Positions 3,167 through 19,004 of a DNA stretch of 39,307 nt are shown in pieces (positions within the stretch are counted from its first letter, which is position 1; every line of letters starts with the position of its first letter). The translations under genes were made by a program, and so were the position numbers. The stretch spans positions 1 through 39,307 of the forward strand of contig NZ_AFNV02000031.1 of the NCBI RefSeq assembly GCF_000215955.2, given 5' to 3'. Source of the DNA: Salinisphaera shabanensis E1L3A (lineage in GTDB: Bacteria > Pseudomonadota > Gammaproteobacteria > Nevskiales > Salinisphaeraceae). Below the pieces are notes generated by a model. It saw nothing but the letters and a program-made list of their open reading frames with translations, had not been told where the DNA came from and ran no database searches.

Positions 3167-3755
3167 CCAGACCGGCCAGATAATGCGTAACCAGGTCGTC
3201 GGTCAGGTGCTCAGTCGCCTGGCCGCCAACCATATGCAGTTTGCCGGTGAGGGTGAGGATGCACACGCCGTGCACCCCGCTCCACAGCGACTGGGCCGCG
3301 GCATCGAGCGCTGCGCCTTCGGCCCCCGACACCCGGGCCAGCGGCGCCATGATGAGCTCCACCAGCTGGGCGATCCGGGCGTCGATGAAGTCCGGGCCGG
3401 CCACGTCTTCGGGCAGGCGATGTTCGAAACAGGCCCGCCACAGGTTGGGGTGGCTGCGTGCAAAGTCGGCATAGGCCCGCGCGGCGCCCAGCAGCTGCTG
3501 CTCGGGGTCGTCGGTCGCGGCCACCGCGGCCTGCATGGGGACCCGTAGCCGGTCGAGCGTGCGGGCGTTCACGTGCAGGATGAGTTCGTCGAGGTTGGCG
3601 AACACCAGGTAGATGGTGCCCGGCGTGTAGCCGATCTGGCGGGCGATGGCACGGGCGCTCAGCCCGGCCAGGCCCTTGTCGACGATCAGCTGCTCGGCGG
3701 CCTCGAGCATGAGATCGCGCAGCTGTTCGCGGGTGTGTTCACTGCGGCGTGCCAT
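3135..3755 (-). CDS. TetR/AcrR family transcriptional regulator
   Basis: A 206-residue protein starting at ATG 3755 (MARRSEHTREQ). A TTG 18 nt upstream would add six residues but is less likely. The N-terminal helix-turn-helix (about residues 10-55) includes LSARAIARQIGYTPGTIYLVF, typical of TetR proteins. The C-terminal part resembles the WHG-type ligand-binding domain, with a conserved tryptophan in LWSGVHG. It lies just downstream of the SDR gene on the same strand, and its 3' end overlaps the convergent MFS-PlsC gene. A 13-bp palindrome about 40 bp upstream of the start may be its own operator. The ligand is unknown; control of the neighbouring SDR or the lipid gene is possible. Confidence 0.88.
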   Translation of the reverse strand: MARRSEHTREQLRDLMLEAAEQLIVDKGLAGLSARAIARQIGYTPGTIYLVFANLDELILHVNARTLDRLRVPMQAAVAATDDPEQQLLGAARAYADFARSHPNLWRACFEHRLPEDVAGPDFIDARIAQLVELIMAPLARVSGAEGAALDAAAQSLWSGVHGVCILTLTGKLHMVGGQATEHLTDDLVTHYLAGLVMRAAPADAR

Positions 3756-3796
3756 GGATAATCGTCCGGCCAAATAAAGCCAGCATAGCGCGATGG

Positions 3797-3809
3797 TGAA
3801 CGGCGTTCA
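3797..3809. promoter_or_regulatory. Palindrome, candidate TetR operator
   Basis: TGAACG-G-CGTTCA is a perfect 13-bp palindrome in the gap between the SDR stop and the TetR start, about 42 bp upstream of the TetR ATG. Position and symmetry fit an autoregulatory TetR site. The assignment is inference only. Confidence 0.35.
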
Positions 3810-3874
3810 TTATCGGCCGCACATGAACACCACGACCCGGCTGCCAGGCAACGACCACCAGGCAGCGCACCTGA

Positions 3875-4642
3875 CTACAGCGTGGACTGCAGGTGGCCGC
3901 CGTCAACCGTGATGGTACTGCCGGTCATGTAGCGGCCGGCGTCCGAAGCCAGCAGCAGCAGCGGGCCGACTAGGTCGTCGACTTGGCCGAGATGACGCTG
4001 CGGAATACGCTTGAGCATCTTCTGGCCCGCGTCCGTTTCGAAAAAGCCGCGGTTGATATCGGTCGAAATATAGCCCGGCGCGATCGCGTTCACGCGGATG
4101 CCGTGACGGGCCCATTCCAGCGCCAGGCTGCGGGTGAGCTGCTCCAGCGCGCTTTTGGAGGCCGCATAGGGCGCCAAAGCGGCCGCCACGCGGTGGCCGA
4201 GGATCGAGGTGATATTGATCACGCTGCCCGGTTTGTCGGTCGCGCGCAGACGGCGACCGGCTTCGGTGGCCACCCGCCAGCAGCCGTTGAGATTTACGTC
4301 GATGGTCTTCAGCCAGTCGGCCTCCTCCATGTCCATGGCCGGGGCGGCCACGGCCACGCCGGCATTGCAGACCACTACGTCCACCGTGCCGAAGGCCTGT
4401 TCGGCGGCATCGAAACCGGCCGCGACCGACTCGGCATCGCTCACATCCATGGGCACCACCATGGCTTCGCCGCCGGCTTCGCGTACCACGTCTGCGGTGG
4501 TCACGAGCGGGCCTTCGCGACGCCCGCAGAGCACCGCCTTGGCGCCGGCCTCGGCCAGTGCGGTGGCAAAGCCGCTGCCCAGGCCGCCACCTGCGCCCGT
4601 GACCAGCGCAATACGGCCGGTCAGATCGAATCGATCGGTCAT
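3875..4642 (-). CDS. SDR family oxidoreductase
   Basis: This 255-residue classical short-chain dehydrogenase/reductase has the nucleotide-binding TGAGGGLG (15-22), NAG in VCNAGVA (91-97), and the catalytic set Asn117, Ser146, Tyr159 and Lys163 (YAASK). It ends in a normal TVDGGH segment. R41 and R42 after the second beta strand suggest NADP(H), as inference. A strong ribosome site (AAAGGAGAG) precedes ATG 4642. The gene lies 49 bp downstream of a LysR gene on the same strand, so the two may be co-transcribed. Resemblance to gluconate 5-dehydrogenase or 3-oxoacyl reductase types is generic, so no substrate is assigned. Confidence 0.92.
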   Translation of the reverse strand: MTDRFDLTGRIALVTGAGGGLGSGFATALAEAGAKAVLCGRREGPLVTTADVVREAGGEAMVVPMDVSDAESVAAGFDAAEQAFGTVDVVVCNAGVAVAAPAMDMEEADWLKTIDVNLNGCWRVATEAGRRLRATDKPGSVINITSILGHRVAAALAPYAASKSALEQLTRSLALEWARHGIRVNAIAPGYISTDINRGFFETDAGQKMLKRIPQRHLGQVDDLVGPLLLLASDAGRYMTGSTITVDGGHLQSTL

Positions 4643-4691
4643 GAAACTCTCCTTTTGTTCTTTGAAATCGCGGCAGACGCCTGCCCGGCTG

Positions 4692-5609
4692 TCAGCTTAA
4701 ATGTTCGCGGGCGATGGCGATAATGCGTTCGCGCAGCCAGCGGTGCGCCACGTCGTGATGATCGAGCGCGCCCCAGGTCATGCCAATATGGAATTCGGGC
4801 AGCTCAAGCGGCGGATCGAGCACGGCCAGGCCAAGATGGCGGGCCTGATAGCGGGCAATACGCGCCGGCAGAGCCACGATCATGTTGCTGTTCGCCACCA
4901 GCTCTCGCGGCAGCTGATAGTGACGGGTGAGCACGCTTATCTGGCGCGACTTGCCGCTATCGGCCAGTACTTCGTCGATCCGGCTCAGGCCAACGCCCGT
5001 CTGTGTGATCAGAATATGTTTCTCGGACAGGAAAGTTTCGAGTGTCAGCTCGCCATTGGCCTCGACCAAGGCCGGATGATCCTTGCGGATCAAGCACGCC
5101 ATGCGATCGCTCCAAAGCTGCTGCTGATGGAAATTGGCCGGCAGTTTGCCGAAACGATTGACCAGCAGATCGGCTTCGCCACGCTCGATCTGGTCGATTG
5201 CATCGCTGCCCGCACTCAGAATATTGAGCGCGATATTCGGCGCCTCCTGCTCAAGCACACCCACAACATGGGGCATGAGCACGGACGCCGCATAGTCGGT
5301 GATCAAAATAGTGAAAAGCCGTTCGGCTGTCGCAGGCTCGAAAGCGCGGTTGGGCGCGATCGCGCTTTCCAATTGGGCCAAGGCATTGCGCACCGGCCGC
5401 TGGAGCTTGAGCGCGCGGTCGGTAGGCTGCATGCCATTGGCAGTACGCACCAGCACCGGATCGCCCAGAAGTTTGCGCAAGCGTCGAAGCGCATTGCTCA
5501 TCGCCGGCTGGCTGAGATCCATCGCCAGCGCAGCCTTGGTTACGCTGCGCTCACGTAAAAGCGCGTCGAGGAAGACGAGCAGGTTCAGGTCAATGTCCCG
5601 AACATTCAT
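4692..5609 (-). CDS. LysR-type transcriptional regulator (NodD/NahR-like)
   Basis: A 305-residue protein beginning MNVRDIDLNLLVFLDALL. The winged HTH occupies residues about 6-65 (SVTKAALAMDLSQPAMSNALRRLR), followed by a periplasmic-binding-like effector domain. The DLNLL start and the GDPVLVRTANGMQPT segment are typical of the NodD/NahR/LinR branch, which often senses aromatic or hydrophobic compounds. The SDR gene follows 49 bp downstream on the same strand and is a natural target, although LysR proteins more often control divergent genes. The divergent side holds a tiny zinc-ribbon gene and then the flavodoxin-fold gene. Confidence 0.92.
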   Translation of the reverse strand: MNVRDIDLNLLVFLDALLRERSVTKAALAMDLSQPAMSNALRRLRKLLGDPVLVRTANGMQPTDRALKLQRPVRNALAQLESAIAPNRAFEPATAERLFTILITDYAASVLMPHVVGVLEQEAPNIALNILSAGSDAIDQIERGEADLLVNRFGKLPANFHQQQLWSDRMACLIRKDHPALVEANGELTLETFLSEKHILITQTGVGLSRIDEVLADSGKSRQISVLTRHYQLPRELVANSNMIVALPARIARYQARHLGLAVLDPPLELPEFHIGMTWGALDHHDVAHRWLRERIIAIAREHLS

Positions 5610-5671
5610 TCAGTGAATACATGCGCCTGGGAATATGGCGCAAGGATAGCATCAAGCCAATATGAGAACGC

Positions 5672-5833
5672 CTAGCGACGACGCTGAAGGAACCGATGTC
5701 CGCAGTCGACGCAGCGGTAGTAGTTACGCAGATTCATCATTTTCCTGAAGCCGTGCCGACGCAGCGGCAGCACGCCATAGCTCTCACACTTAGGGCATCT
5801 TTCGCGATTGCGTTCAGCAACTTCAGCTGTCAT
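5672..5833 (-). CDS. 53-residue zinc-ribbon protein
   Basis: Minus-strand reading from ATG 5833 to TAG 5672 gives 53 residues: MTAEVAERNRERCPKC, then CESYGVLPLRR, and YRCVDCGHRF near the end. Two CxxC knuckles (C13/C16 and C41/C44) lie 24 residues apart, a complete zinc ribbon with a very basic tail (QRRR). The pattern resembles the N-terminal zinc ribbon of transposases such as the IS1 InsA type, but no other transposase part is nearby. It could be a stand-alone nucleic-acid-binding protein or an IS remnant. There is no clear Shine-Dalgarno sequence, only an A-rich upstream stretch. The cysteine spacing is the main evidence that this frame is real. Confidence 0.6.
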   Translation of the reverse strand: MTAEVAERNRERCPKCESYGVLPLRRHGFRKMMNLRNYYRCVDCGHRFLQRRR

Positions 5834-6193
5834 TTGAAACTTTTAGATGGCTACAAATGGGACACGACGTTTTCTGATCGCGCAATAGCCAGAAACCGTA
5901 CACCGCTTCGCGGAATACAAGAACGATAAATCTTTTACAATTTAATTTGATGTCATGGAAAAAGAGCGCCAACCGTGCTGCATTATTTTCTGTACCGCCC
6001 GTTCTGGCGCCTGAATGGACCGCAGTCCTCTATTCAAACCTGACGACATCGCCATATAACCATTATGCACCAATAGTCGACGCTGTCTTTTTTTTTTGCG
6101 CGTCGTGTATCGAACCGATCACCGTCGCATTAATTAGTTACCGGGCCATTAAATTCCAAACATTTTAATTTTCTTTTCTAAGGATTTACGCCC
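5834..6193. other. AT-rich intergenic region, no confident gene
   Basis: The 360 bp between the zinc-ribbon start and the flavodoxin-fold gene are clearly richer in A/T than the surroundings and include a run of ten T at about 6090. A plus-strand frame at 5947-6168 has no recognisable domain and atypical composition. The region probably carries divergent promoters, but no single site stands out. Confidence 0.4.
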
Positions 6194-6667
6194 ATGAGTC
6201 AACCCGTGCGCCAGGTCGCCGTAATCGCCCATGCGCCGTCAAAGAACACGCGTCGCTTGCGTGACGCCGTGCTGCGCGGCATTGCAAATCCCGATATCGA
6301 TAACGTCACAGCACGGTGGATCGCACCCCTGGAAGCGGGGCCCGAGGATGTACTCACCGCGGATGCCGTCATTCTTGGCACGCCCGAAAACCTCGGCACC
6401 ATGAGCGGCGCGCTCAAGGATTTTTTCGATCGCAGCTATTACCACTGCTTGGAACACACCGATGCGCTGCCGTTCGCGTTCTATGTCCGCGCGGGCCAGG
6501 ATGGCACCGGCACACGCCGCGCAGTCGAAAGTATTACGGGCGGGCTTCGCTGGAAAAGCGTACAGGAACCGCTGATATGCCGCGGGCCGTTCGATCCCGC
6601 TTTCGAAATACAGTGCGAAGAATTGGGCCTGATGATGGCAGCAGGCCTGGAGTCCGGTTTGTTTTAG
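6194..6667 (+). CDS. Flavodoxin-fold / FMN reductase-like protein
   Basis: A 157-residue protein of the flavodoxin family. HAPSKNT (13-19) lies where the FMN phosphate loop is expected. GTPENLGTMSGALKDFFDR (62-80) is the second FMN-contacting segment typical of flavodoxin and NAD(P)H:quinone-type proteins. A third loop (YVRAGQDGTGTRRA) also fits. The likely role is FMN-dependent electron transfer or quinone/nitro reduction in the cytoplasm; the substrate is unknown. AAGGA about 10 nt before ATG 6194 is the ribosome site. The urea operon follows 193 bp downstream but has its own sigma-54-type promoter, so a functional link is not implied. Confidence 0.75.
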   Translation: MSQPVRQVAVIAHAPSKNTRRLRDAVLRGIANPDIDNVTARWIAPLEAGPEDVLTADAVILGTPENLGTMSGALKDFFDRSYYHCLEHTDALPFAFYVRAGQDGTGTRRAVESITGGLRWKSVQEPLICRGPFDPAFEIQCEELGLMMAAGLESGLF

Positions 6668-6683
6668 CAGTTGCCGAACGCGC

Positions 6684-6700
6684 TGCACCACATACGGGCA
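6684..6700. promoter_or_regulatory. NtrC-like upstream activator site
   Basis: TGCACC-ACATA-CGGGCA matches the 17-bp NtrC consensus TGCACY-N5-RGTGCA at 10 of 12 defined positions. Its centre lies about 146 bp upstream of the transcription start predicted for the sigma-54 promoter at 6811-6828, within the usual enhancer distance. Only one copy was found; NtrC enhancers are often paired, which lowers confidence. Confidence 0.5.
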
Positions 6701-6735
6701 GAAGCTGTTTTAGCGCCCTAAAAAAGGTCGAATAC

Positions 6736-6793
6736 GATCTAGTCCGCTACTAGATCATCTGGCAACCGCGCCAGAACAGACCCGCATCGTCTG
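6736..6793. other. Three tandem stem-loops upstream of the urea operon
   Basis: Three perfect inverted repeats follow one another with single-base gaps: GATCTAGT/ACTAGATC with a 5-nt loop (6736-6756), TCTGGC/GCCAGA with a 6-nt loop (6758-6775), and CAGAC/GTCTG with a 7-nt loop (6777-6793). They lie between the NtrC-like site and the sigma-54 promoter. They could be binding sites or an end structure for the preceding flavodoxin-fold transcript. No U-tract follows, so a classical intrinsic terminator is not supported. Confidence 0.45.
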
Positions 6794-6810
6794 CAAACCG
6801 TAGATTCGTG

Positions 6811-6828
6811 CTGGCACATGCGTTGCAT
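6811..6828 (+). promoter_or_regulatory. Sigma-54 (RpoN) -24/-12 promoter of the urea operon
   Basis: CTGGCAC (6811-6817) and TTGCAT (6823-6828) match the RpoN consensus TGGCACG-N4-TTGCW. The invariant GG (6813-6814) and GC (6825-6826) are exactly 10 nt apart. Transcription would start near 6838, about 23 nt before the allophanate hydrolase ATG. Together with the NtrC-like site this predicts induction under nitrogen limitation. No convincing sigma-70 promoter overlaps the site. Confidence 0.75.
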
Positions 6829-6834
6829 ATCCGT

Positions 6835-6842
6835 TGTATACA
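6835..6842. promoter_or_regulatory. TGTATACA palindrome, candidate GntR operator
   Basis: This 8-bp palindrome lies at the predicted transcription start, nested inside a wider inverted pair TGCATA (6824-6829) / TATGCA (6849-6854) with nearly the same centre. FadR-type GntR regulators often bind TGTATACA-like sites, and a GntR/FCD gene lies in this operon at 12313. Steric repression of the sigma-54 promoter is an inference. Confidence 0.45.
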
Positions 6843-6860
6843 TACCTGTATGCAGCTCAT

Positions 6861-8681
6861 ATGACGATTTCGACCCTCGCCGACTGGCACACCGCTTATG
6901 CCGACGGCGTAAAGACGCCGCGCGCCGCGCTCCATACCTTGCATGAGACGCTTTCGCCCGACGATCCAGCCTGGATTCATATTATTAGCGGCGTCGAGTT
7001 GGACGCCCAGCTGGATGCGCTCGAGGCACGACTCGAACGCGCAGAAGGCAGAGAATCTGCGCTACCGCTTTACGGTGTTCCCTTTGCGGTCAAGGACAAT
7101 ATCGACGTCGCCGGGCTACCCACAACGGCCGCGTGCCCGGACTATAGGTACACACCCGAGCGATCGGCCCATGTGGTCGAAAAGCTGCAGGCCGCGGGTG
7201 CGATCCTGCTGGGCAAGACCAATCTCGACCAGTTCGCGACCGGGCTTGTGGGTACCCGCTCACCGTATGGCGCGGTTCCGAATGCATTCGACACCACTTA
7301 TATAAGCGGAGGCTCGAGCTCGGGTTCTGCATCGGTAGTCGCACGCGGGCTGGTGGCGTTCTCGCTAGGGACCGATACCGCCGGCTCGGGACGCGTGCCG
7401 GCCGGATTCAACAACCTGGTAGGCGTTAAAGCAACCTGCGGTGCCATCAGCGCCCGCGGTGTGTTGCCGGCCTGCAAGTCACTGGACTGCGTATCCATCT
7501 TCGCGCTGGACATGAGCGACGCCGACGCCGTGCGCGATGTACTCGTCGAGTTCGATACAGAAGACGCTTATTCGCGTCGCAAACCCCATGACGCGCCCGG
7601 CGCACAGGCCAGCGCCACAACGCCGCGACTGGGTGTTCCGACCGAACCGCAATTCTTCGGCGACGATGAAGCACGCGCCGCGTTCGAAGCCGCTATAGCA
7701 CGCTGGCGACAGACCGGCGCCGAGATCGTTGAACTCGACTTTACACCGTTCCACGAAGCCGCCGCCCTGCTCTATCAAGGCCCCTGGGTCGCCGAGCGCT
7801 ATGCCGCGGTGGGCGAGTTCATCGATGCGAATCCCGATGCCGCCGAGCCGGTGGTGGCCGGCATTATTACCGGCGGCAAGAACGCCAGCGCGGTCGACGC
7901 CTTTCGGGCCCAGTACGCGCTGTCGGCGCTCAAGCGCAAAGCGGACGCTCTCATCGAAAACGTCGACGCGCTGCTCGTACCCACATCGCCGAGCATCTAT
8001 AGCCAGGCCGAGATCGAAGCCGAGCCGGTCGAACTCAACAGCCGCCTGGGCACTTATACCAACTTCGTGAATCTGCTCGATTACTGCGCGCTCGCCCTGC
8101 CGGGTGGTTTTCGCGAGGACGGCCTGCCCGCCGGCATCACGCTCATTGCACCGGCATGGCACGACGATCGTCTCGCCGCGCTCGGTGCGCGCTGGCAAAA
8201 CCATCAGCCGTGGCCGCTGGGCACGGGCGAACGCCTCGCGTCGCAAGTCACGATCACAACGGTCACAGCACCAGCGACGGACATGATCCGTGTGGCCGTG
8301 GTCGGCGCACACCTGCGCGGCATGCCGCTGAACTGGCAGCTCACCGAACGCGATGCGGTCTTCGTGGAACAGACCGAAACCGCGCCCGAATACCGTCTTT
8401 TGGCGCTTGCCGGCACCACGCCACCCAAGCCGGGGTTGATCCGCGGCGACAGCGGCGCAGCGATTCAGGTCGAGCTCTGGGATGTGCCCGTGGCGGCGTT
8501 TGGCTCATTCGTTGCACTCATTCCAGCACCGCTGGGCATCGGCACGTTGACGCTGGCCGACGGCCGCGAAGTGAAAGGTTTCATCTGTGAAGGCTGGGCC
8601 GCCGAGACCGCCCGCGACGTGACCGAATTCGGCGGCTGGCGCGCCTATATCGCAGACCAGAAAGCAAAGGCGAACGACTAA
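6861..8681 (+). CDS. atzF: Allophanate hydrolase
   Basis: This enzyme hydrolyses allophanate to ammonia and CO2, the second step of urea amidolysis. From ATG 6861 it has 606 residues; an in-frame start 27 nt upstream would precede the predicted transcription start. The amidase-signature domain (about 1-450) has Lys78 (FAVKDNID), cis-Ser152 in GGSSSGSA and nucleophile Ser176 in GTDTAGSG. The C-terminal domain (about 475-600, starting MIRVAVVGAHLRGMPLN) is the one specific to AtzF/DUR1 allophanate hydrolases, which separates it from general amidases. Its stop codon overlaps the next start (TAATG), so translation of the two enzymes is probably coupled. No strong Shine-Dalgarno sequence is seen. 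It is the first gene of the urea operon. Confidence 0.95.
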   Translation: MTISTLADWHTAYADGVKTPRAALHTLHETLSPDDPAWIHIISGVELDAQLDALEARLERAEGRESALPLYGVPFAVKDNIDVAGLPTTAACPDYRYTPERSAHVVEKLQAAGAILLGKTNLDQFATGLVGTRSPYGAVPNAFDTTYISGGSSSGSASVVARGLVAFSLGTDTAGSGRVPAGFNNLVGVKATCGAISARGVLPACKSLDCVSIFALDMSDADAVRDVLVEFDTEDAYSRRKPHDAPGAQASATTPRLGVPTEPQFFGDDEARAAFEAAIARWRQTGAEIVELDFTPFHEAAALLYQGPWVAERYAAVGEFIDANPDAAEPVVAGIITGGKNASAVDAFRAQYALSALKRKADALIENVDALLVPTSPSIYSQAEIEAEPVELNSRLGTYTNFVNLLDYCALALPGGFREDGLPAGITLIAPAWHDDRLAALGARWQNHQPWPLGTGERLASQVTITTVTAPATDMIRVAVVGAHLRGMPLNWQLTERDAVFVEQTETAPEYRLLALAGTTPPKPGLIRGDSGAAIQVELWDVPVAAFGSFVALIPAPLGIGTLTLADGREVKGFICEGWAAETARDVTEFGGWRAYIADQKAKAND

Positions 8682-11600
8682 TGGCAGAACTGGATACCGT
8701 ACTCATCGCCAACCGCGGCGAAATCGCGGTGCGCATCGCGCGTACGCTCAAGACGATGGGCGTGAAAAGCGTCGCCGTCTATGCCGATTCCGATCGCGAC
8801 AGCGGCCATGTCAGCGCGGCCGATCAGGCGATTGCCCTCGGCGGCGATTCCGCGGCGGACAGCTATCTGAATGTTGACGCCGTGCTGGCGGCCGCTCGTG
8901 AAGCAGGCGCACAGGCGATCATTCCGGGTTACGGTTTTCTGTCCGAAAACGCGGATTTCGCCCGCGCCTGTGAAGATGCCGGCATTGCCTTTGCCGGCCC
9001 CACGCCCGAGCAGATCGAACAGTTCGGCCTCAAACACACCGCACGCGAGTTGGCCGAGAATGCCGGTGTGCCGCTGGCCCCCGGCACCGGCCTGCTCGAC
9101 AGCCTGGATGACGCGAAGACAGCCGCAGCCGAGCTCGGCTATCCGGTGATGCTCAAATCCACCGCTGGCGGCGGCGGTATTGGACTGTCGCGCTGTAATG
9201 ACGAGCCGGAACTGGAAGCGGCGTTCGAAAAAGTGGCCCGGTTGGGCCAGAACTATTTCTCCGACGACGGCGTGTTTCTGGAACGCTTCATCGAGTCCGC
9301 TCGCCATGTGGAAATTCAGATCTTTGGCGACGGCAACGGCACGGTGGTGGCGCTGGGCGAGCGCGACTGTTCGCTGCAAAGACGCAACCAGAAAGTCGTC
9401 GAAGAAACGCCGGCGCCGCATCTGCCGGCGGCCACCCGCGACGCCATGATGGCGGCTGCGATCAGTCTGGGCGAATCCGTAAATTATCGCTCGGCCGGCA
9501 CGGTGGAATTCATCTACGACGGCGCCCGCGACGAATTCTATTTTCTGGAGGTCAACACGCGCCTGCAGGTCGAGCATCCGATTACCGAAGCCGTGACCGG
9601 CGTCGATCTCGTGGAATGGATGGTGCGCACTGCGGCCGGCTCACCGCCCGATCTGAGCGCCTTCGAGGCCAACCCCCAGGGTTGCGCGATCGAGGTGCGT
9701 ATCTATGCTGAACAGCCGGCGCGCGACTTTCAGCCGTCCCCGGGCGTTCTGACCGAGGTCGTGTTCGACGAACATGCGCGCGTGGACACCTGGGTCGCAG
9801 CGGGCACCGAGGTGTCGTCGCATTTCGATCCGATGATCGCCAAGCTGATCGTGCATGGGGATACCCGCGACGAAGCCCTCGCCCGGCTGGCGAACGCGCT
9901 GGATGCCACCCGGCTGTCCGGCATCGCCACCAATCTCGACTATCTGCGCCAGATCGTGGCGAACGAAAAATTCGCGGCCGGCAAAGTCTCGACCGCCTTT
10001 CTGGCCGATTTCGACTATGAGCCGCCGTTTCTCGAAATCATCAAACCCGGCACCTACACCAGCATCCAGGATTTCCCCGGCCGTACCGGTTATTGGCATA
10101 TCGGCGTGCCGCCGTCCGGGCCGATGGACGACTATGCCTTTCGTCTGGCCAATGCCATCGTCGGCAACGACGCCTCGGCAGCGGGCATCGAATGCACCAT
10201 CCTCGGGCCGACGATTCGCTTTCATACCGATGCTGTAATCGCGCTCACTGGCGCCAAGACCGCCGCCACGCTGGACGACCAGCCGGTCGATTCCTGGGCA
10301 CCGATCGAGGCCAAGGCCGGGCAGACGCTGGTCGTTGGCAAGGCCGAATCCGGCTGTCGCACCTATATCGCGGTACGCGGCGGCATCGACGTGCCAGACT
10401 ACCTTGGCAGCAAGTCGACCTTTGCCCTGGGCCAGTTCGGCGGTCATGCCGGTCGGCCGCTGCGGGCGACCGACATGCTCGCCGTTTGCGATGCGTCCAA
10501 ACCCAACGCACCGACGCCCGCCCCGATCCGCGAGCCGCAGACGGCCCCCGACGCGCTCGTGCCGGACTATGGTTCGCATTGGGAAATCGGCGTGCTCTAT
10601 GGCCCGCACGGCGCGCCCGATTTCTTTACGCAGGACTCGATCGCCCGCTTCTTCAAAACCGACTGGGAAGTCCACTACAACTCGAACCGGCTCGGTATTC
10701 GTCTGAACGGGCCCAAGCCGACCTTCGCCCGCGAAGACGGCGGGGAGGCCGGCCTGCATCCGTCCAATATACACGATACGGAATACGCGGTCGGCAGCAT
10801 CAATTTCACCGGCGATATGCCGGTGATCCTCACCCGCGACGGGCCGAGCCTGGGTGGCTTCGTCTGCCCAGTGACCATTGCCGCGGCCGAACTCTGGAAA
10901 GTCGGCCAGGTGGCTCCGGGCGATACGATTCGTTTTGTGCAACTCGGCTTCGACGAGGCGGCCGCACTGCAGCGTGAACAAGACGCTGCCTGCGACGATC
11001 TCGTCGTGCCGGCGCAACGCGAGCCGGAGGCCCTGCCCGCGCCGGCAGACACGGTCTCGCCCTGCGTGCTGGCCGAACGCCCGGCCGAAGGCAGCCGTCC
11101 CGCCGTGGCGTATCGCCAGGCGGGCGATCGCTATATTCTGATCGAGTACGGGCCCAACGTTCTGGATCTGCGTTTTCGGCTGCGCGTTTATCTGCTCATG
11201 CAGGCGCTGGAGAAGAACCCGGTCGACGGCATTCTCGAGCTCTCGCCCGGCGTGCGCTCGCTACAGGTCAACTACGACGGCCGGCGTATCCACCAGCGCG
11301 ATCTGATCGACGCGCTGCTCGCCATCGAGGCCGACCTGCCCGACGTCGACGACCTCAAGCTCAATACGCGCGTACTGCACCTGCCGCTGGCGTTCGAAGA
11401 CAGCGCCACGCTGGATGCCGTATCGCGCTACCGCCAGTCGGTACGCGATACCGCGCCGTGGCTGCCGAACAACGTCGATTTCATCCAGCGTATCAATGGC
11501 CTGGATACGCGCGAACAAGTACAGGACACGATTCTTGCGGCCAGCTATATGGTGCTCGGCCTGGGCGATGTATACCTCGGCGCGCCTTGTGCGGTGCCGA

Positions 11601-12310
11601 TCGACCCACGCCATCGTCTGGTCACGTCGAAGTACAACCCGGCGCGTACCTATACCGCCGAAGGCACCGTCGGTATCGGCGGCGTGTATATGTGCATCTA
11701 CGGCATGGATTCGCCGGGTGGCTATCAGCTCGTCGGCCGTACCCTGCCGATCTGGAACAAGTTCGGGCACAACGAACAGTTCGACCCGGGCGAACCCTGG
11801 CTACTGCGCTTCTTCGACCAGGTGCGTTACTACCCAGTCGACGAAGACACGCTCACCAAGATGCGCGCCGAGTTCCGGGCTGGCCGGCTGCACGCCGAAA
11901 TCACCGAGGAAGTCTTCGACTTCGCCGAGTACCGGCAGTTTCTCGACAACAACGCCGACGACATCGCCGCGTTTCGCGAGCGCCAGAACGACGCCTTCGC
12001 CAAGGAGGTCGAACATTGGCAAGCCCAGGCCGAAGCCGAACCCGAGGAAAAAGCCGGCCCCGCGGCCGCACCGGCCGATGAGGCCATCGACGGCGAAGCC
12101 ATTACCGCGGACGTGTCCGGCAATGTTTGGAAGCTGCAGGTCGAGGAAGGCGCCCGGGTCGAAGCCGGTGACACGCTGGTAATCGTGGAAGCGATGAAAA
12201 TGGAATTCGCGGTCGAAGCGCCCTGTGCCGGCACCGCGAAATCGCTGCGCTGCGACCAGGGCACGCTGGTGTCGGCCGGCGATGTACTGCTCGTGATCGA
12301 AGCCGATTGA
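8681..12310 (+). CDS. uca: Urea carboxylase, biotin-dependent
   Basis: This 1209-residue enzyme carboxylates urea to allophanate using ATP and bicarbonate. Domain order is biotin carboxylase (about 1-450; IANRGEIAVRIA, ATP-grasp loop AGGGGIG near 161), a KipA/AHS2-type carboxyltransferase half (about 455-770; GPMDDYAFRLAN), a KipI/AHS1-type half (about 800-1020) and a biotinyl domain (about 1135-1209). The biotin site is Lys1173 in EAMKMEF. This order and length match bacterial urea carboxylases. Many relatives are guanidine carboxylases, but those sit with carboxyguanidine deiminase (DUF1989) genes and often a guanidine riboswitch. Neither is present, and a urea transporter follows, so urea is the better substrate. 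Confidence 0.95.
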   Translation: MAELDTVLIANRGEIAVRIARTLKTMGVKSVAVYADSDRDSGHVSAADQAIALGGDSAADSYLNVDAVLAAAREAGAQAIIPGYGFLSENADFARACEDAGIAFAGPTPEQIEQFGLKHTARELAENAGVPLAPGTGLLDSLDDAKTAAAELGYPVMLKSTAGGGGIGLSRCNDEPELEAAFEKVARLGQNYFSDDGVFLERFIESARHVEIQIFGDGNGTVVALGERDCSLQRRNQKVVEETPAPHLPAATRDAMMAAAISLGESVNYRSAGTVEFIYDGARDEFYFLEVNTRLQVEHPITEAVTGVDLVEWMVRTAAGSPPDLSAFEANPQGCAIEVRIYAEQPARDFQPSPGVLTEVVFDEHARVDTWVAAGTEVSSHFDPMIAKLIVHGDTRDEALARLANALDATRLSGIATNLDYLRQIVANEKFAAGKVSTAFLADFDYEPPFLEIIKPGTYTSIQDFPGRTGYWHIGVPPSGPMDDYAFRLANAIVGNDASAAGIECTILGPTIRFHTDAVIALTGAKTAATLDDQPVDSWAPIEAKAGQTLVVGKAESGCRTYIAVRGGIDVPDYLGSKSTFALGQFGGHAGRPLRATDMLAVCDASKPNAPTPAPIREPQTAPDALVPDYGSHWEIGVLYGPHGAPDFFTQDSIARFFKTDWEVHYNSNRLGIRLNGPKPTFAREDGGEAGLHPSNIHDTEYAVGSINFTGDMPVILTRDGPSLGGFVCPVTIAAAELWKVGQVAPGDTIRFVQLGFDEAAALQREQDAACDDLVVPAQREPEALPAPADTVSPCVLAERPAEGSRPAVAYRQAGDRYILIEYGPNVLDLRFRLRVYLLMQALEKNPVDGILELSPGVRSLQVNYDGRRIHQRDLIDALLAIEADLPDVDDLKLNTRVLHLPLAFEDSATLDAVSRYRQSVRDTAPWLPNNVDFIQRINGLDTREQVQDTILAASYMVLGLGDVYLGAPCAVPIDPRHRLVTSKYNPARTYTAEGTVGIGGVYMCIYGMDSPGGYQLVGRTLPIWNKFGHNEQFDPGEPWLLRFFDQVRYYPVDEDTLTKMRAEFRAGRLHAEITEEVFDFAEYRQFLDNNADDIAAFRERQNDAFAKEVEHWQAQAEAEPEEKAGPAAAPADEAIDGEAITADVSGNVWKLQVEEGARVEAGDTLVIVEAMKMEFAVEAPCAGTAKSLRCDQGTLVSAGDVLLVIEAD

Positions 12311-12312
12311 TC

Positions 12313-13038
12313 ATGAGCACCGCGCACACAATCCGAATTGCCAAGCCCCCAAGCACAAAGCGTGTGAACCTGGCCGATCGGGTCTATGCACAACTCAAGG
12401 CCGAGCTGTTCGATTTTCAGCTCATGCCCGGCGATCCCATTTCCGAAAACGAGATCGCCGAACGCACCCAGGCCAGCCGTACGCCCGTACGCGAAGCGCT
12501 GTTCCGACTACAGCGCGACGGCTATGTCGACGTGCAGGCCCGGAACGGCTGGTACGTCAAACCGCTGGACTTCGACGCGTTCGACGAACTCTACGATGTA
12601 CGCATCACGCTCGAATGCGTGGCCGCGCAGCGGCTGTGTGCACTCGACAACCGCCCGCCGGCGTTGACGGGACTCGATGCGACCTGGGGTATCGACACGG
12701 CCCGCCGCGAAACCGACAGCACGACGCTCTGGCAGTTAGACGAACAGTTTCATGCCGAAATCGTCGCGGCCGCGGGCAATCGCGAAATGGCGCGTATTCA
12801 TCGCGATGTGACCGAGCGCATTCGCATCGTGCGACGCCTGGATTTCGTCAAGCCCGCCCGCGTGGATGCGACCTACGATGAGCACGCAGCGATTCTACGG
12901 CTGCTGGGCGAACGGCATGCCGAGCCCGCCCAGCACCTGCTCGAAGCCCATATCAAGGCCAGCCGCGACGCGGTTCGCCAAATCACCTTGCACGGGCTTT
13001 TCGAGGCCCGCGATGCGATACGCACGGGCGCGGCCTGA
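12313..13038 (+). CDS. GntR family regulator, FCD (FadR-like) type
   Basis: From ATG 12313 the protein has 241 residues; a TTG at 12307 overlapping the previous stop is less likely. The N-terminal winged HTH (about 18-85) contains SENEIAERTQASRTPVREAL, typical of GntR proteins. The C-terminal all-helical FCD domain (about 90-225) has the acidic and histidine positions of the metal- and ligand-binding family members (DELYDVR, DEQFHAEI). It sits between the catabolic genes and the transporter, 2 nt after the carboxylase stop and 48 bp before urtA, so it probably senses urea, allophanate or a related metabolite and tunes this operon. TGTATACA at 6835 is a candidate target. Confidence 0.92.
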   Translation: MSTAHTIRIAKPPSTKRVNLADRVYAQLKAELFDFQLMPGDPISENEIAERTQASRTPVREALFRLQRDGYVDVQARNGWYVKPLDFDAFDELYDVRITLECVAAQRLCALDNRPPALTGLDATWGIDTARRETDSTTLWQLDEQFHAEIVAAAGNREMARIHRDVTERIRIVRRLDFVKPARVDATYDEHAAILRLLGERHAEPAQHLLEAHIKASRDAVRQITLHGLFEARDAIRTGAA

Positions 13039-13086: not shown

Positions 13087-14409
13087 ATGTTGAAGAAAAC
13101 GACACGCCACAAACTCGTCACGCGCGTACTCGCGCCGGCGCTACTGACGTTCGGCGCCTTTACCGGCGCCCATGCCGCAGAGGATGCCAAGGCGGATTGC
13201 CCGATCAAGGTCGGCGTACTGCATTCGCTGTCCGGCACGATGGCCATCAGCGAGTCCACGCTCAAGGACACGGCCCTCATGCTGATCAAACAGCAGAACG
13301 AAAAAGGCGGCTTGCTTGGCTGCCAGCTCGAGCCGGTGGTCGTGGACCCGGCCTCGAATTGGCCGCTGTTCGCGGAAAAAGCCCGTCAATTGCTCGCTCA
13401 AGACAAGGTCGACGTGGTGTTCGGCACCTGGACGTCCGTATCGCGCAAGTCGGTTCTGCCCGTATTCGAAGAGTTGAACGGTCTGCTGTTCTACCCGGTG
13501 CAATACGAGGGTGAAGAATCCTCGCGCAATATCGTCTATACCGGTGCCGCGCCCAACCAGCAGGCCATTCCGGCAGTGAACTATTTGATGAACGAAGTCG
13601 GCGTCGAGCGCTGGGTGCTGCTGGGCACGGACTATGTCTACCCGCGTACCACCAACAAGATCCTCAAGCAGTATCTGATGGACCAGGGCGTGGCCGAATC
13701 CGACATCATGATCAACTATACGCCGTTCGGGCATTCCGACTGGCAGAGCATCGTCTCGCGTGTGAAGGCCTTCGGTTCGGTCGGCAAGAAGACCGCCGTG
13801 GTTTCCACCATTAACGGCGATGCGAACGTGCCCTTCTACAAGGAACTCGCCAACCAGCAGATTTCGGCCGCCGATATTCCGGTCGTGGCGTTCTCGGTGG
13901 GCGAACAGGAGCTTTCGGGCATCAACACCGGGCCGCTGCTCGGGCATCTCGCGGCCTGGAACTATTTCCAGAGCATCGATACGCCGGCCAACGAACAGTT
14001 CATCGAGAACTGGCATGCGTACACCGGTGACGACAATCGCGTGACCAACGATCCGATGGAAGCCACCTATATCGGTTTCAATCTCTGGACCAAGGCGGTC
14101 GAGAAAGCCGGCACCACCGATGTCGACACGGTCATCGACACCCTGCCCGGCCTGAAGGTCGACAACCTGACCGGTGGCACCGCCGAATTGCTGCCCAACC
14201 ACCACATCACCAAACCGGTCTATATAGGCGAGATTACCGACGACGGTCAGTTCTCGGTGGTATGGGAAACCGACGACGAAGTCCCCGGTGATGCCTGGTC
14301 CGACTTCCTGCCGGACAGCAAAAAGCTCAAGGCCGATTGGGCCGATCTGGACTGCGGTCATTACAACACCGAAACCGAGTCCTGCACCGGCCAGAGCGCC
14401 GAGCAGTAA
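13087..14409 (+). CDS. urtA: Urea ABC transporter, substrate-binding protein
   Basis: A 440-residue periplasmic binding protein. A Sec signal peptide (about 1-30; LAPALLTFGAFTGAHAA) precedes a type I periplasmic-binding fold of the FmdD/AmiC/UrtA kind. Motifs include IKVGVLHSLSGTMAISE, the FYPVQYEGEESS segment and TWTSVSRKSVLPVFE, all characteristic of UrtA. It captures urea in the periplasm for UrtBCDE. GGAGG five nt before ATG 13087 is a strong ribosome site. It follows the GntR gene by 48 bp and is followed by a 10-bp hairpin before urtB, which would favour higher levels of this stoichiometrically abundant component. Confidence 0.96.
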   Translation: MLKKTTRHKLVTRVLAPALLTFGAFTGAHAAEDAKADCPIKVGVLHSLSGTMAISESTLKDTALMLIKQQNEKGGLLGCQLEPVVVDPASNWPLFAEKARQLLAQDKVDVVFGTWTSVSRKSVLPVFEELNGLLFYPVQYEGEESSRNIVYTGAAPNQQAIPAVNYLMNEVGVERWVLLGTDYVYPRTTNKILKQYLMDQGVAESDIMINYTPFGHSDWQSIVSRVKAFGSVGKKTAVVSTINGDANVPFYKELANQQISAADIPVVAFSVGEQELSGINTGPLLGHLAAWNYFQSIDTPANEQFIENWHAYTGDDNRVTNDPMEATYIGFNLWTKAVEKAGTTDVDTVIDTLPGLKVDNLTGGTAELLPNHHITKPVYIGEITDDGQFSVVWETDDEVPGDAWSDFLPDSKKLKADWADLDCGHYNTETESCTGQSAEQ

Positions 14410-14450: not shown

Positions 14451-14475
14451 GCACCGGGCCCTCGTGGCCCGGTGC
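14451..14475 (+). promoter_or_regulatory. Intercistronic hairpin between urtA and urtB
   Basis: GCACCGGGCC (14451-14460), a 5-nt loop and GGCCCGGTGC (14466-14475) form a perfect 10-bp, very GC-rich stem in the 90-bp gap after urtA. No T-run follows, so it is more likely a 3'-end stabiliser or partial attenuator than a full terminator. It covers the GTG at 14464, which argues for the urtB start at 14500. Confidence 0.6.
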
Positions 14476-14499
14476 CTTCGGCTACCCAATGACTCCGCC

Positions 14500-16323
14500 A
14501 TGGACAGATTCAGAACAACCGGCGCAGCGCGCAGACTGATCGCGATACTTGTCGTGCTTGGCATCGCGTTCGCCACGACCGCGGCAATGGCCAAGGGCGA
14601 TACGACCGGCGACCCACCGAGCGCCGGCGCCGCGACGCCTGACGCGCAAAGCACGCCCGATACACCGGCGCCAGCGCAATCAGCCACGCCGCCTGTATCA
14701 CCCGCCGCGGGCGACGACGACGCTGCCGCCCCGAGCGCGACCGACGATACCGCCCCCGAAAACGAAGGCTTCGACTATGCGGGCACGGTCGCCGCATTGG
14801 GCGAAGCGAACTACCCGGAAAAACGGCGCATCGTGAGTGCGCTCGCCAGTCACCCGCAGGCGCATACCGCCGAACTGCTGGCGGCCTTTGCCGATAACCG
14901 GCTGGTCGCTCGCGAATCGGACGGCAAGGTTTTCGTGGCCGAAGAAAACGGCAACGACTACGACCTGCGCGACCCGATCACTTTCGAACCGGCCGGCCGC
15001 GCTTCGACGCGCGATTTCGACCCGGTACGAACCAATATCGGCCTGCGCCAGAACATAGGCGCGGCCCAGGCCCAGCTCAAACTCAGCGCCGAGGACGCCG
15101 AGACCCGGCTGGCCGCCGTCGAAACCATGTCGGAAAAGCTCGACGACAACGCCGCCGACGCCATGCGCGCGCATCGGGCCAGCGAAACCGACGACGACGT
15201 ACTCGAAGCCATCGATCGCGCATTGGCGATCAACGATCTGAACACCGGCGACAACGACGCCAAGCTCGCCGCGATCGAGCGGCTGTCCGGCGACAACAGC
15301 CAGATGGTCTACAACCGTCTCAAGAACATGCTCATCCTCATTCCCGAGGACACGGCCGACGCCGATCAGGCGCGCCTGCGTGCGGCCGCGGCCGAACAGG
15401 TCGAACGTATCGACTGGTGGCGCACGGTCTACGATTACCTGGAAACCCTGTTCTTCGGCCTGAGCCTGGGCTCGATTCTGGTGCTCGCCGGTATCGGCCT
15501 GGCGATCACATTCGGCGTCATGGGCGTGATCAACATGGCCCACGGCGAGCTGATCATGCTCGGCGCCTATACCGCCTTTGTCATGCAGCAGTTGTTGCCC
15601 GGTCATATTGGCCTGGCGCTCGTATTGGCTGTGCCGGCGGCATTTATCGTGTCGGGGCTGGTCGGCATTCTCATCGAACGCTCGATCGTGCAGTGGCTCT
15701 ACGGGCGCCCGCTGGAAACGCTGCTGGCCACCTTCGGTGTGAGCCTTTTCCTGCAGCAACTGGTACGCAGCGTGTTTACCCCGCTCAACCGGTCGGTCGC
15801 CTCGCCCGAGTGGATGAGCGGTTTGATCCGGTTCAACGACCTGTTCGCGCTCACCGCCAACCGGCTCGTGATTCTGGCGTTCTCGATGGCCGTTTTCGCG
15901 GCCCTCATTCTGGTGATGCAAAAGACGTCGCTGGGCCTGAAAGTGCGTGCGGTTTCGCAGAACCGCGATATGGCACGGGCGATGGGTATACGCACGCAGC
16001 GCCTCGATGCCCTGACCTTCGGCCTGGGTTCCGGTGTGGCCGGTATCGCGGGCGTAGCGCTGAGCCAGTTGACCAACGTCGGCCCGAACCTGGGCCAGAG
16101 TTACATCATCGACTCGTTCATGGTGGTGGTCTTCGGCGGGGTCGGCAATCTTTGGGGCACGCTCGTCTCGGGTCTGTCGCTGGGCGTATTGACCAAGTTC
16201 ATCGAGCCCCAGACCGGCGCAGTGCTGGCCAAGATCATCGTGCTGATCTTTCTCATTCTGTTCATTCAGCGGCGACCGCGCGGGTTATTCCCGCAGAAAG
16301 GCCGCACGGCGGAGGGCAGCTGA
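14500..16323 (+). CDS. urtB: Urea ABC transporter, permease UrtB with long N-terminal domain
   Basis: A 607-residue protein from ATG 14500. It begins with a signal-like segment (LIAILVVLGIAFATTAAMA), then an Ala/Pro/Thr/Asp-rich linker (about 30-85), a helical periplasmic region (about 88-300; NYPEKRRIVSALASH, then VETMSEKLDDNAADAM) and a LivH-type permease of about 300 residues. The permease part has GLAITFGVMGVINMAHGELIML and GLKVRAVSQNRDMARAMGI, typical of UrtB. An extension of this kind is known in proteobacterial UrtB, but the acidic, low-complexity linker makes this one long. The stop overlaps the urtC start (TGATG), implying translational coupling. Confidence 0.94.
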   Translation: MDRFRTTGAARRLIAILVVLGIAFATTAAMAKGDTTGDPPSAGAATPDAQSTPDTPAPAQSATPPVSPAAGDDDAAAPSATDDTAPENEGFDYAGTVAALGEANYPEKRRIVSALASHPQAHTAELLAAFADNRLVARESDGKVFVAEENGNDYDLRDPITFEPAGRASTRDFDPVRTNIGLRQNIGAAQAQLKLSAEDAETRLAAVETMSEKLDDNAADAMRAHRASETDDDVLEAIDRALAINDLNTGDNDAKLAAIERLSGDNSQMVYNRLKNMLILIPEDTADADQARLRAAAAEQVERIDWWRTVYDYLETLFFGLSLGSILVLAGIGLAITFGVMGVINMAHGELIMLGAYTAFVMQQLLPGHIGLALVLAVPAAFIVSGLVGILIERSIVQWLYGRPLETLLATFGVSLFLQQLVRSVFTPLNRSVASPEWMSGLIRFNDLFALTANRLVILAFSMAVFAALILVMQKTSLGLKVRAVSQNRDMARAMGIRTQRLDALTFGLGSGVAGIAGVALSQLTNVGPNLGQSYIIDSFMVVVFGGVGNLWGTLVSGLSLGVLTKFIEPQTGAVLAKIIVLIFLILFIQRRPRGLFPQKGRTAEGS

Positions 16324-17449
16324 TGACACGCACCCATGCCAACCACGGCCCGGTACTCACGCGCATGCTCGGCGATACCGGCAGCCTGATCTTCGTGGTC
16401 GTGCTGATCGCGCTGACCGTGGCGATTCCGCTGTGCAATCTGGTGGCCGAACCCGGCAGTGCATTGCACGTTTCGAACTTCACGGTCGCGCTCATCGGCA
16501 AGTATCTGACCTATGCCCTGCTCGCGGTAGCGCTCGATCTGATCTGGGGCTATTGCGGCATTCTGAGTCTTGGCCATACGGCCTTCTTCGGGCTCGGCGG
16601 CTATGCCATGGGCATGTATCTGATGCGCCAGATCGGCGATCGCGGCGTCTACGGCAACCCGGTTTTGCCGGACTTCATGGTATTTCTGAACTGGGACACG
16701 TTGCCCTGGTACTGGCACGGCATGGATATCTTTGCCGTGGCCATGGCCATGGTCGTTTTCGTGCCAGGCCTGCTTGCGCTGGTGTTCGGCTGGCTGGCAT
16801 TTCGCTCACGGGTGACCGGCGTGTATTTCGCCATCATCACCCAAGCGATGACCTATGCCCTGATGCTGGCGTTCTTTCGCAACGAAATGGGCTTCGGCGG
16901 CAACAATGGCCTGACCGATTTCAAGGACATTCTCGGCTACAGCTTGTCGTCAGACGGTACCCGCGTCGCTTTGTTCGTGGCCTCTGGCGTCGGGCTGCTG
17001 ATCGGTTTTCTGATCGCGCGCTTTATCGTCACATCGCGCGCCGGACGCGTGCTCGAAGCCATTCGCGACGCGGAAAGCCGCACCCGTTTCACCGGCTATC
17101 GTGTCGAACTCTACAAGGTCTGGATCTTCACTATCTCGGCCATGCTTGCCGGCGTGGCGGGCGCGCTCTACGTGCCGCAGGTCGGCATCATCAACCCGAG
17201 CGAGTTCTCGCCCATCGCCTCGATCGAGGCCGTGGTGTGGGTCGCGGTCGGCGGGCGCGGCACGCTTTACGGCGCGGCTCTTGGCGCCGGCGTGGTGAAT
17301 TTCGCCAAGACCTGGCTGACCGGGGCCTTTCCGGAAATATGGCCATACGCACTGGGCGCGCTGTTCGTGGCCGTCACCCTGTTTCTGCCCAAAGGCATCG
17401 TCGGACTGGTTTCACAACTGCGCCGGCAGATTCGCCGAAAGGAGCCGTC

Positions 17450-17453: not shown

Positions 17454-18275
<822 letters not shown>

Positions 18276-18283
<8 letters not shown>

Positions 18284-19004
18284 TGCCGTACAAAAAATCG
18301 ACACCGCGCCGAGTCTGACGATCCGTGGGCTCGACCAGTATTACGGCGGCAGTCATATCCTCTGGGATGTCGATCTGGACGTCACGCCGGGGGCCATCAG
18401 TTGCTTGATTGGTCGCAACGGCATGGGCAAGACGACCCTGCTCAAGACCGTCATGGGCCTGGTACCCGCAACCGGCGAGATTCGCTTCGGCGATACCGAT
18501 CTGCTCAAACTGCCCGCCGACAAGCGCGCGGGGCTGGGCATCGGCTATGTGCCGCAGGGCCGTGAAATCTTCGGTCAGCTTTCGGTCGCCGAAAATCTCG
18601 AACTGGGGCTATACGTACGCCGCGATCGTTCGCGCGCAGCGCTCGATCGCATATTCGAACTGTTTCCGGTATTGAAGGACATGCGCAGCCGTCGCGGCGG
18701 CGATCTGTCCGGCGGTCAGCAGCAACAACTGGCCATCGCACGGGCGCTGGTATTCGATCCGACGCTGCTGATTCTCGATGAGCCCTGCGAAGGCATTCAG
18801 CCGAATATCGTGGCCCAGATCGGCGACACGCTGGAAAAACTCAACCGCGAGGACGGCCTTACCGTACTGCTGGTCGAACAGAAACTGCCCTTCGCGCGGC
18901 GCGTGGCCGACGAATTCCGGATTCTCGACAACGGGCGGCTGGTCGCCCAGGGTAATATCGACGAACTCACCAACGAAATCGTGAACCGACATCTGAGCGT
19001 TTGA
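18276..19004 (+). CDS. urtE: Urea ABC transporter, ATP-binding protein UrtE
   Basis: A 242-residue LivF-type ATPase with Walker A GRNGMGKTT (46-54), signature LSGGQQQQLAIARAL and Walker B LLILDEPCEGIQPN. GRNGMGKTTLLK is characteristic of UrtE. The start is a GTG at 18276 that overlaps the urtD stop by 8 nt; GGAGGT at 18262-18267 supports this choice. The N-terminus carries about 14 residues before the ABC core. It is the last recognisable gene of the urea operon; an unrelated small gene follows 87 bp later with no terminator visible between. Confidence 0.95.

Follow-up and report, generated by a model that had tools for sequence, protein, structure and literature searches.

Introduction

Allophanate hydrolase (AH) is the last step shared by the use of nitrogen from urea (without urease), guanidine, biuret and cyanuric acid. 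In the hut system of Pseudomonas, HutC is described as the repressor and NtrC or CbrB as the activator at a sigma-54 promoter (PMC8871633), and NtrC control has already been predicted for the AH gene (atzF) of Rhizobiales and for the urt transporters of several groups (PMC5343134). Of the enzymes annotated as urea carboxylases, those with an active-site Asp are reported to be guanidine enzymes and those with Asn to be urea enzymes (PMC12186494). An atzF-uca-gntR-urtABCDE cluster has been described in Ectopseudomonas guguanensis G3 (PMC13296017), and the AH gene of P. pseudoalcaligenes adjoins a GntR gene and ABC genes in the account given of it (PMC6368324). The present analysis concerns the region upstream of an AH gene of Salinisphaera shabanensis E1L3A, on contig NZ_AFNV02000031.1, of which positions 1 to 39,307 constitute the whole stretch analysed (the window). 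In a preliminary description, the urea operon beginning with this gene was proposed to be driven by a sigma-54 promoter with an NtrC-like enhancer; this interpretation holds by comparison with related loci but is incomplete, as it leaves out both a conserved palindrome at the predicted start, a putative GntR-type operator, and the regulator gene that the operon itself carries. We propose, with good confidence, that positions 6684-6861 form a two-input switch in which activation by NtrC and sigma-54 would be combined with a GntR block at the start, the ligand of which is most likely allophanate. The evidence throughout is sequence comparison, and promoter, operator and enhancer are predicted elements.

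Results

Predicted sigma-54 promoter

Homologous loci were taken from the best 80 matches of a capped AH search together with relatives and were divided into 56 loci in which AH comes first, followed by a carboxylase and/or GntR gene, and 32 in which the carboxylase lies upstream of AH. A further 22 AH-carrying loci, including the window's own copy (L002), belong to neither group and were left out of the promoter counts. In the 32 carboxylase-before-AH loci the tested stretch consists largely of the final part of the carboxylase gene, and they serve as a chance control only, uninformative on the promoter of that operon itself. In the window, C6811 to T6828 reads CTGGCACATGCGTTGCAT, with GG at 6813-6814 and GC at 6825-6826, the 10-nt separation given in the preliminary description being borne out by direct reading, and with a predicted +1 near 6838, a sigma-54 start being expected some 12 nt past the GC. 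Against TGGCAC-N5-TTGCW, which we take to be the sigma-54 consensus and which was used for scoring, all 11 consensus positions match at 6812-6827. The claim that the pairing of promoter, enhancer and pathway is unlikely by chance finds no footing in the window alone, where the promoter pattern at no more than one mismatch is seen twice against 1.40 expected; the strength of the promoter case comes from its conservation in relatives, not from window-only statistics. The -24/-12 element stands 49 nt before the start codon, as in the window, in all six of the closest same-genus AH orthologues (L003-L008, 70-85% identical), four of which match every consensus position and two of which (L004 and L006) have TGGCAT for TGGCAC. 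Scanning related genomes more widely, a check that had been suggested at the outset, gave at least 10 of 11 positions with GG and GC required in 42/56 AH-first loci as against 1/32 carboxylase-before-AH loci, and without this requirement in 45/56 (shuffles, 1.0%) as against 1/32 (shuffles, 0.2%), with conservation extending across gamma- and betaproteobacteria. Six AH-first loci (L044, L045, L062, L068, L069 and L073) fall below nine matches when GG and GC are required. Across the S. shabanensis genome, YTGGCAY-N5-TTGCW is matched 12 times, compared to 4 for the reversed control; of the other 11 matches, four stand ahead of, or at the start of, genes with a likely role in nitrogen use (those for biuret amidohydrolase, aliphatic amidase, an NMT1-type binding protein and an ANTAR-domain response regulator), and the remaining seven have no evident connection or fall within a reading frame. 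The genome also encodes RpoN (PF04552, 220.3 bits). By conservation, then, CTGGCAC-N5-TTGCA (6811-6827) is the predicted sigma-54 promoter of the AH-urea carboxylase-GntR-urtABCDE operon.

A putative GntR-type operator over the predicted start

A palindrome lying just after the -12 element is common to the aligned relatives, and in the window (6834-6855) it spans about -4 to +18 if +1 is 6838. When all 4096 12-bp palindromes were ranked over the 45 nt that follow the -12 element in 50 loci, CTTGTATACAAG came first, with a mean best match of 10.80 versus a median of 6.30, and it was present at 10 or more of 12 positions in 45/50 loci. The box starts 4-16 nt beyond the final base of the promoter. 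Comparison supports the order and spacing of the two elements as well as the elements themselves. The box and the regulator gene also occur together, a box of at least 9/12 being found upstream of AH in 45/45 AH-first loci showing a GntR gene, in 9/11 AH-first loci without GntR in the stretch covered (7 of these 11 being short stretches) and in 1/32 carboxylase-before-AH loci. Two full-length AH-first loci, L044 and L073, have neither box nor GntR orthologue, with no more than a partial match of 35% at the edge of L073. The palindrome at 6834-6855 is an operator-like site that lies over the predicted +1, as in hut-type repressed sigma-54 promoters, and we infer that the GntR protein binds it and that repression is the direction of control. 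No published account of this GntR operator was found among the open-access papers listed by the searches made. In L036, L041 and others, the operator appears by eye to be extended after -12 into a dyad of about 30 bp with outer arms such as GAATTC.../GGAATTC, which suggests two dimers or a larger footprint.

Distribution of the regulator and its likely ligand

Within the GntR-FCD protein, D145, H149, H193 and H215, which we take to be the Asp and three His of the FCD metal site and to act as such, are invariant in 43/43, and a metal site kept in this way would suit a carboxylate ligand. Orthologues of at least 62% identity are present in 6 of 11 genus genomes (the window's own, G003, G004, G008, G011 and G012), all of them with the AH unit (E <= 1e-40), and G004 and G012 hold a 36-38% paralogue in addition. 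Whole-genome searches at E <= 1e-40 returned no orthologue in G001, G005, G006, G007 and G013, the AH match of G006 being incomplete.

The regulon is likely to be small. A composite of the sigma-54 site with TGTATACA occurs three times in the S. shabanensis genome (at the urea operon, C34:56840 and C34:70796; control, 0), and a slightly looser form gave nine matches among 17 family genomes with none for the reversed-pattern control. Seven of the nine are the AH promoters of the seven genomes with the AH unit and two are the C34 sites; no match came from the remaining 10 genomes. Placed beside a sigma-54 site, the short TGTATACA core is specific, unlike a longer operator pattern, which at up to 3 mismatches gave 33 matches in the same genome against 16 in the control and was rejected as too loose to define a regulon. 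The gene that follows C34:70796 is that of biuret amidohydrolase (NF050097, 402.9 bits; cut-off 370). The one that follows C34:56840 encodes an NMT1-type binding protein and is clustered with genes for a Rieske oxygenase, 8-oxoguanine deaminase, cyanuric acid amidohydrolase and urate oxidase. Cyanuric acid is converted through biuret to allophanate, the substrate of AH. The surrounding stretch (L198, C34:54000-73500) looks like a route from oxidised purines to cyanuric acid and on to biuret, with the composite at two of its promoters; L198 also holds a formamidase and a xanthine dehydrogenase-like protein (below cut-off) alongside the biuret amidohydrolase.

A single AH is found in the genome at E <= 1e-80. 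Its separate guanidine operon (L177, C13:20000-37500, at 3256-11311) includes an NMT1 binding protein, a permease, an ATPase, two UAAP/DUF1989 genes and an Asp-type carboxylase behind a Guanidine-II riboswitch, and as no AH match was found in this 17.5-kb stretch, the operon seems to rely on the window's AH. Ten genomes, of completeness not given, carry AH-GntR without an adjoining carboxylase, and each has one AH (E <= 1e-60) and one carboxylase elsewhere (E <= 1e-150), which is Asp-type in 10/10 (that of L172 being partial with an internal stop) and is accompanied by Guanidine-II in 9/10. Within the genus, Guanidine-II is present at 8/8 Asp-type loci examined and 0/4 Asn-type loci, and the near-complete member G008 combines AH-GntR with an Asp-type carboxylase alone. 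Eleven genomes keep AH-GntR where only guanidine-type carboxylases, and no urea carboxylase, were found. By this comparison, the GntR gene stays with AH, whatever makes allophanate. Because one AH serves the urea, guanidine and biuret/cyanurate routes, and because AH-GntR is kept where the carboxylases found are guanidine-type only, the GntR protein probably represses and senses allophanate.

It is a substantial possibility, if one held short of probable, that the architecture is the same and that GntR responds to urea or to some other signal, such as biuret, 2-oxoglutarate or glutamine. FCD domains bind many small molecules. However, GntR accompanies AH where a guanidine carboxylase is the only carboxylase of the family found, which makes urea unlikely as the sole signal, and allophanate is the compound common to all of the routes.

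NtrC and the predicted nitrogen control

The NtrC-like 17-mer is centred 146 nt upstream of 6838. The 10/12 match originally reported for it (to TGCACC-N5-GGTGCA, counted by eye) and its position both stand; against the fuller palindrome TGCACCA-N3-TGGTGCA, presumably the NtrC consensus and used here for scoring over its 14 palindrome positions, it reaches 11/14, a score that shuffled sequence also attains (see below). Base-by-base conservation of the site was not found in an alignment of 10 relatives, and the site was then tested as a motif. TGCACCA-N3-TGGTGCA ranks first of 16,384 seven-N3-seven palindromes upstream of 50 homologous promoters, and the mean best match over 55 promoters (window included) is 9.89/14 versus 8.27 +/- 0.19, highest 8.91, for 150 permuted palindromes. 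The suggested search for the enhancer in relatives thus produced no alignable site but did produce the top palindrome across the family, and of the parts first proposed the enhancer is the less secure one. NtrB and NtrC are encoded in the genome, with scores above the curated cut-offs (NF008176, 716.4 against 620; NF008293, 335.4 against 240), and nitrogen control of the operon, as first proposed, is upheld as a prediction in which NtrC would be the activator. In a B. cenocepacia ntrC mutant, urea carboxylase transcription is reported to be down (log2 -6.0), and as the gene lies beside an entry for a "urea carboxylase-related aminomethyltransferase" and may be guanidine-type, the support from that species is weak (PMC5491218). 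Between enhancer and promoter lies a perfect inverted repeat (6736-6756), which was not seen in 10 aligned relatives.

Points weighing against the proposal

Several observations weigh against a switch of this kind. With regard to NtrC, the window site is imperfect and single, a score of 11/14 or better arises in 19/2000 dinucleotide shuffles of the 230-nt upstream region, and same-genus relatives score 8 to 12 of 14. In addition, NtrC matches at four other sigma-54 sites of the genome that lie at likely nitrogen genes (L119, L120, L122 and L123) are only 8-9/14, which would mean that the consensus is a poor fit to this genome or that a different activator is at work. These weak matches, together with the imperfect site of the window and the 13 sigma-54 activator domains matched by Pfam in the genome (10 above 120 bits), would favour activation of the promoter by an enhancer-binding protein other than NtrC. 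This is nonetheless unlikely, as the NtrC palindrome heads the 16,384 ranked in the sequence ahead of the homologous promoters, and the protein of this type encoded in the window (37529-38944) lies 30 kb away and reaches the cut-off of none of the NCBIfam models listed for it.

With regard to promoter and operator, the -12 is weak in L062, L068 and L069 (TTGGCAC or ATGGCAC, then TTGA or TTGT), and the AH-GntR locus L045 has the box but no -24/-12 match. Two of the four full-length AH-first loci without a GntR orthologue, L058 and L061, carry the box, and no GntR match was found there even at E 0.01 in the 17.8 kb covered; their regulator may be elsewhere or absent. The composite pattern used in the S. 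shabanensis genome was written after all three of its sites had been seen, and to the right of the core both C34 boxes read ACGTTG in place of TGTATGCA, so that a second regulator could bind at these sites. Finally, the lineages in the AH locus set are not independent, given how it was drawn. It could be supposed from the presence of RpoN and NtrC, the conserved promoter and the box without a GntR orthologue in the stretch covered of L058 and L061 that sigma-54 and NtrC alone control the operon, the palindrome being irrelevant or part of the leader and GntR regulating something else. Such an arrangement is quite improbable, as the box is the top one of 4096 palindromes and stands 4-16 nt past the promoter end, and as it accompanies GntR in 45/45 loci and is missing together with it from L044 and L073.

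A urea operon with its own predicted regulator

The AH start codon is ATG 6861, and the family models give the gene order AH - urea carboxylase - GntR - urtABCDE. AH, urea carboxylase and UrtA-E are all matched, confirming the complete urea uptake and amidolysis operon first described directly downstream of the promoter; that description was right on gene content but left the third gene, the GntR-FCD regulator, unmentioned. In an alignment to 3va7/5i8i, of which residues 701-720 were inspected, Asn708 of the window carboxylase (in GSINFTGD) aligns with the specificity Asn of the K. lactis enzyme, presumably N1330. Homologues without a carboxylase, or not covering the specificity site, were left out of the Asn/Asp counts. 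Asn is found in 35/35 readable carboxylases among 57 AH-first loci (the window's copy counted), the other 22/57, including the window's short copy L002, having no carboxylase or not covering the site, and also in four further same-genus carboxylases adjoining AH (L178-L181). In the carboxylase-before-AH loci (n=32), 22 of 23 readable enzymes have Asp and one has Asn, nine not covering the site; the single Asn carrier, L104, is a Verrucomicrobiota metagenome-assembled genome. Rfam found no riboswitch or leader RNA in the window at gathering scores, and no DUF1989 protein was present among the operon genes scanned with domain and family models. The operon, as judged by its enzymes and in keeping with what was first claimed, is one that serves urea. 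Many "urea carboxylases" are reported to be guanidine carboxylases (PMC12186494), yet a misannotated guanidine operon is rejected here as very improbable on account of Asn708, the lack of a riboswitch in the window and of a DUF1989 protein among the operon genes scanned, with the urea transporter genes in the operon and the separate Asp-type guanidine operon of the same genome standing against it as well.

Table 1. Features of the urea operon and its upstream region in the window.
Feature	Position	Strand	Basis
NtrC-like enhancer site TGCACCACATACGGGCA	6684..6700	+	11/14 to TGCACCA-N3-TGGTGCA
Perfect inverted repeat GATCTAGT-N5-ACTAGATC, 8-bp arms, between enhancer and promoter	6736..6756	.	direct reading
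Predicted sigma-54 -24/-12 promoter CTGGCAC-N5-TTGCAT	6811..6828	+	sequence and conservation across AH loci
Predicted GntR-type operator TTGTATACATACCTGTATGCAG	6834..6855	.	conservation, motif ranking
Allophanate hydrolase (AtzF type), first gene	6861..8681	+	PF01425 and PF21986; TIGR02713, 842.9 bits
Urea carboxylase with Asn708	8681..12310	+	TIGR02712, 1939.9 bits; alignment to 3va7/5i8i
GntR-family regulator with FCD domain, predicted repressor	12307..13038, ATG at 12313	+	PF00392, 61.9 bits; PF07729, 68.9 bits
urtA, urea-binding protein	13087..14409	+	TIGR03407
urtB, permease	14464..16323	+	TIGR03409, model covers residues 327-614 of frame
urtC, permease (model-matched stretch)	16464..17408	+	TIGR03408, 439.3 bits
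urtD, ATPase (model-matched stretch)	17555..18283	+	TIGR03411
urtE, ATPase	18276..19004	+	TIGR03410

Elsewhere in the window, at 1232-3166, a single reading frame encodes a major facilitator superfamily transporter domain followed by an acyltransferase domain.

Discussion

The comparisons presented here allow a mechanism to be proposed for the control of this operon. Under nitrogen limitation, phosphorylated NtrC bound upstream, for which 6684-6700 is the best candidate, would activate sigma-54 polymerase at 6811-6828, and an AH-urea carboxylase-GntR-urtABCDE mRNA would start near 6838. The GntR/FCD protein would bind the 6834-6855 palindrome across the start and block transcription until its ligand appears, this ligand being most likely allophanate, to which the urea, guanidine and biuret routes all lead. 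Expression would thus need both nitrogen hunger and a flow of substrate, and the operon would make its own repressor. The allophanate produced by guanidine carboxylase goes to the same final enzyme, AH. It can be suggested tentatively, at a likelihood approaching even, that an allophanate-sensing GntR gates sigma-54/NtrC promoters where urea, guanidine and cyanurate/biuret metabolism converge, such that one sensor together with nitrogen hunger would open several unrelated pathways, guanidine being sensed separately by its riboswitch upstream of this node. The presence of a repressor-type operator at the start of a conserved sigma-54 promoter offers a testable rule for the opening of the AH step and predicts an allophanate sensor, and promoters of this kind would help to tell urea-type from guanidine-type operons, which annotation mixes.

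HutC presumably belongs to a GntR subfamily different from the FCD type. Unlike hut, which serves histidine, the present system would employ an FCD-type GntR protein, has a palindrome that covers the predicted start or follows closely upon it, and would act at a pathway node shared by several nitrogen compounds. In common with Pseudomonas hut, this is a catabolic nitrogen operon. In hut, NtrC and CbrB are the sigma-54 activators upstream, and the substrate-specific repressor is described as being released by the intermediate urocanate (PMC8871633); the predicted counterparts here would be NtrC and the GntR protein. The predicted NtrC regulons likewise place NtrC on atzF and urt, and the relevant portion of that account gives no GntR operator, urea carboxylase or AH-GntR unit (PMC5343134). 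Guanidine carboxylase operons share the carboxylase superfamily, but are described with Asp, a riboswitch and a DUF1989 pair, as opposed to the Asn and the predicted sigma-54/GntR control of the present operon (PMC12186494). The closest in gene order is the E. guguanensis G3 cluster, which includes the GntR gene and is described, in the part of the paper devoted to it, as synteny without promoter or operator (PMC13296017). Hut-like dual control is thus already known, and what is new here is the conserved GntR-type operator on the predicted start, together with the likely allophanate signal.

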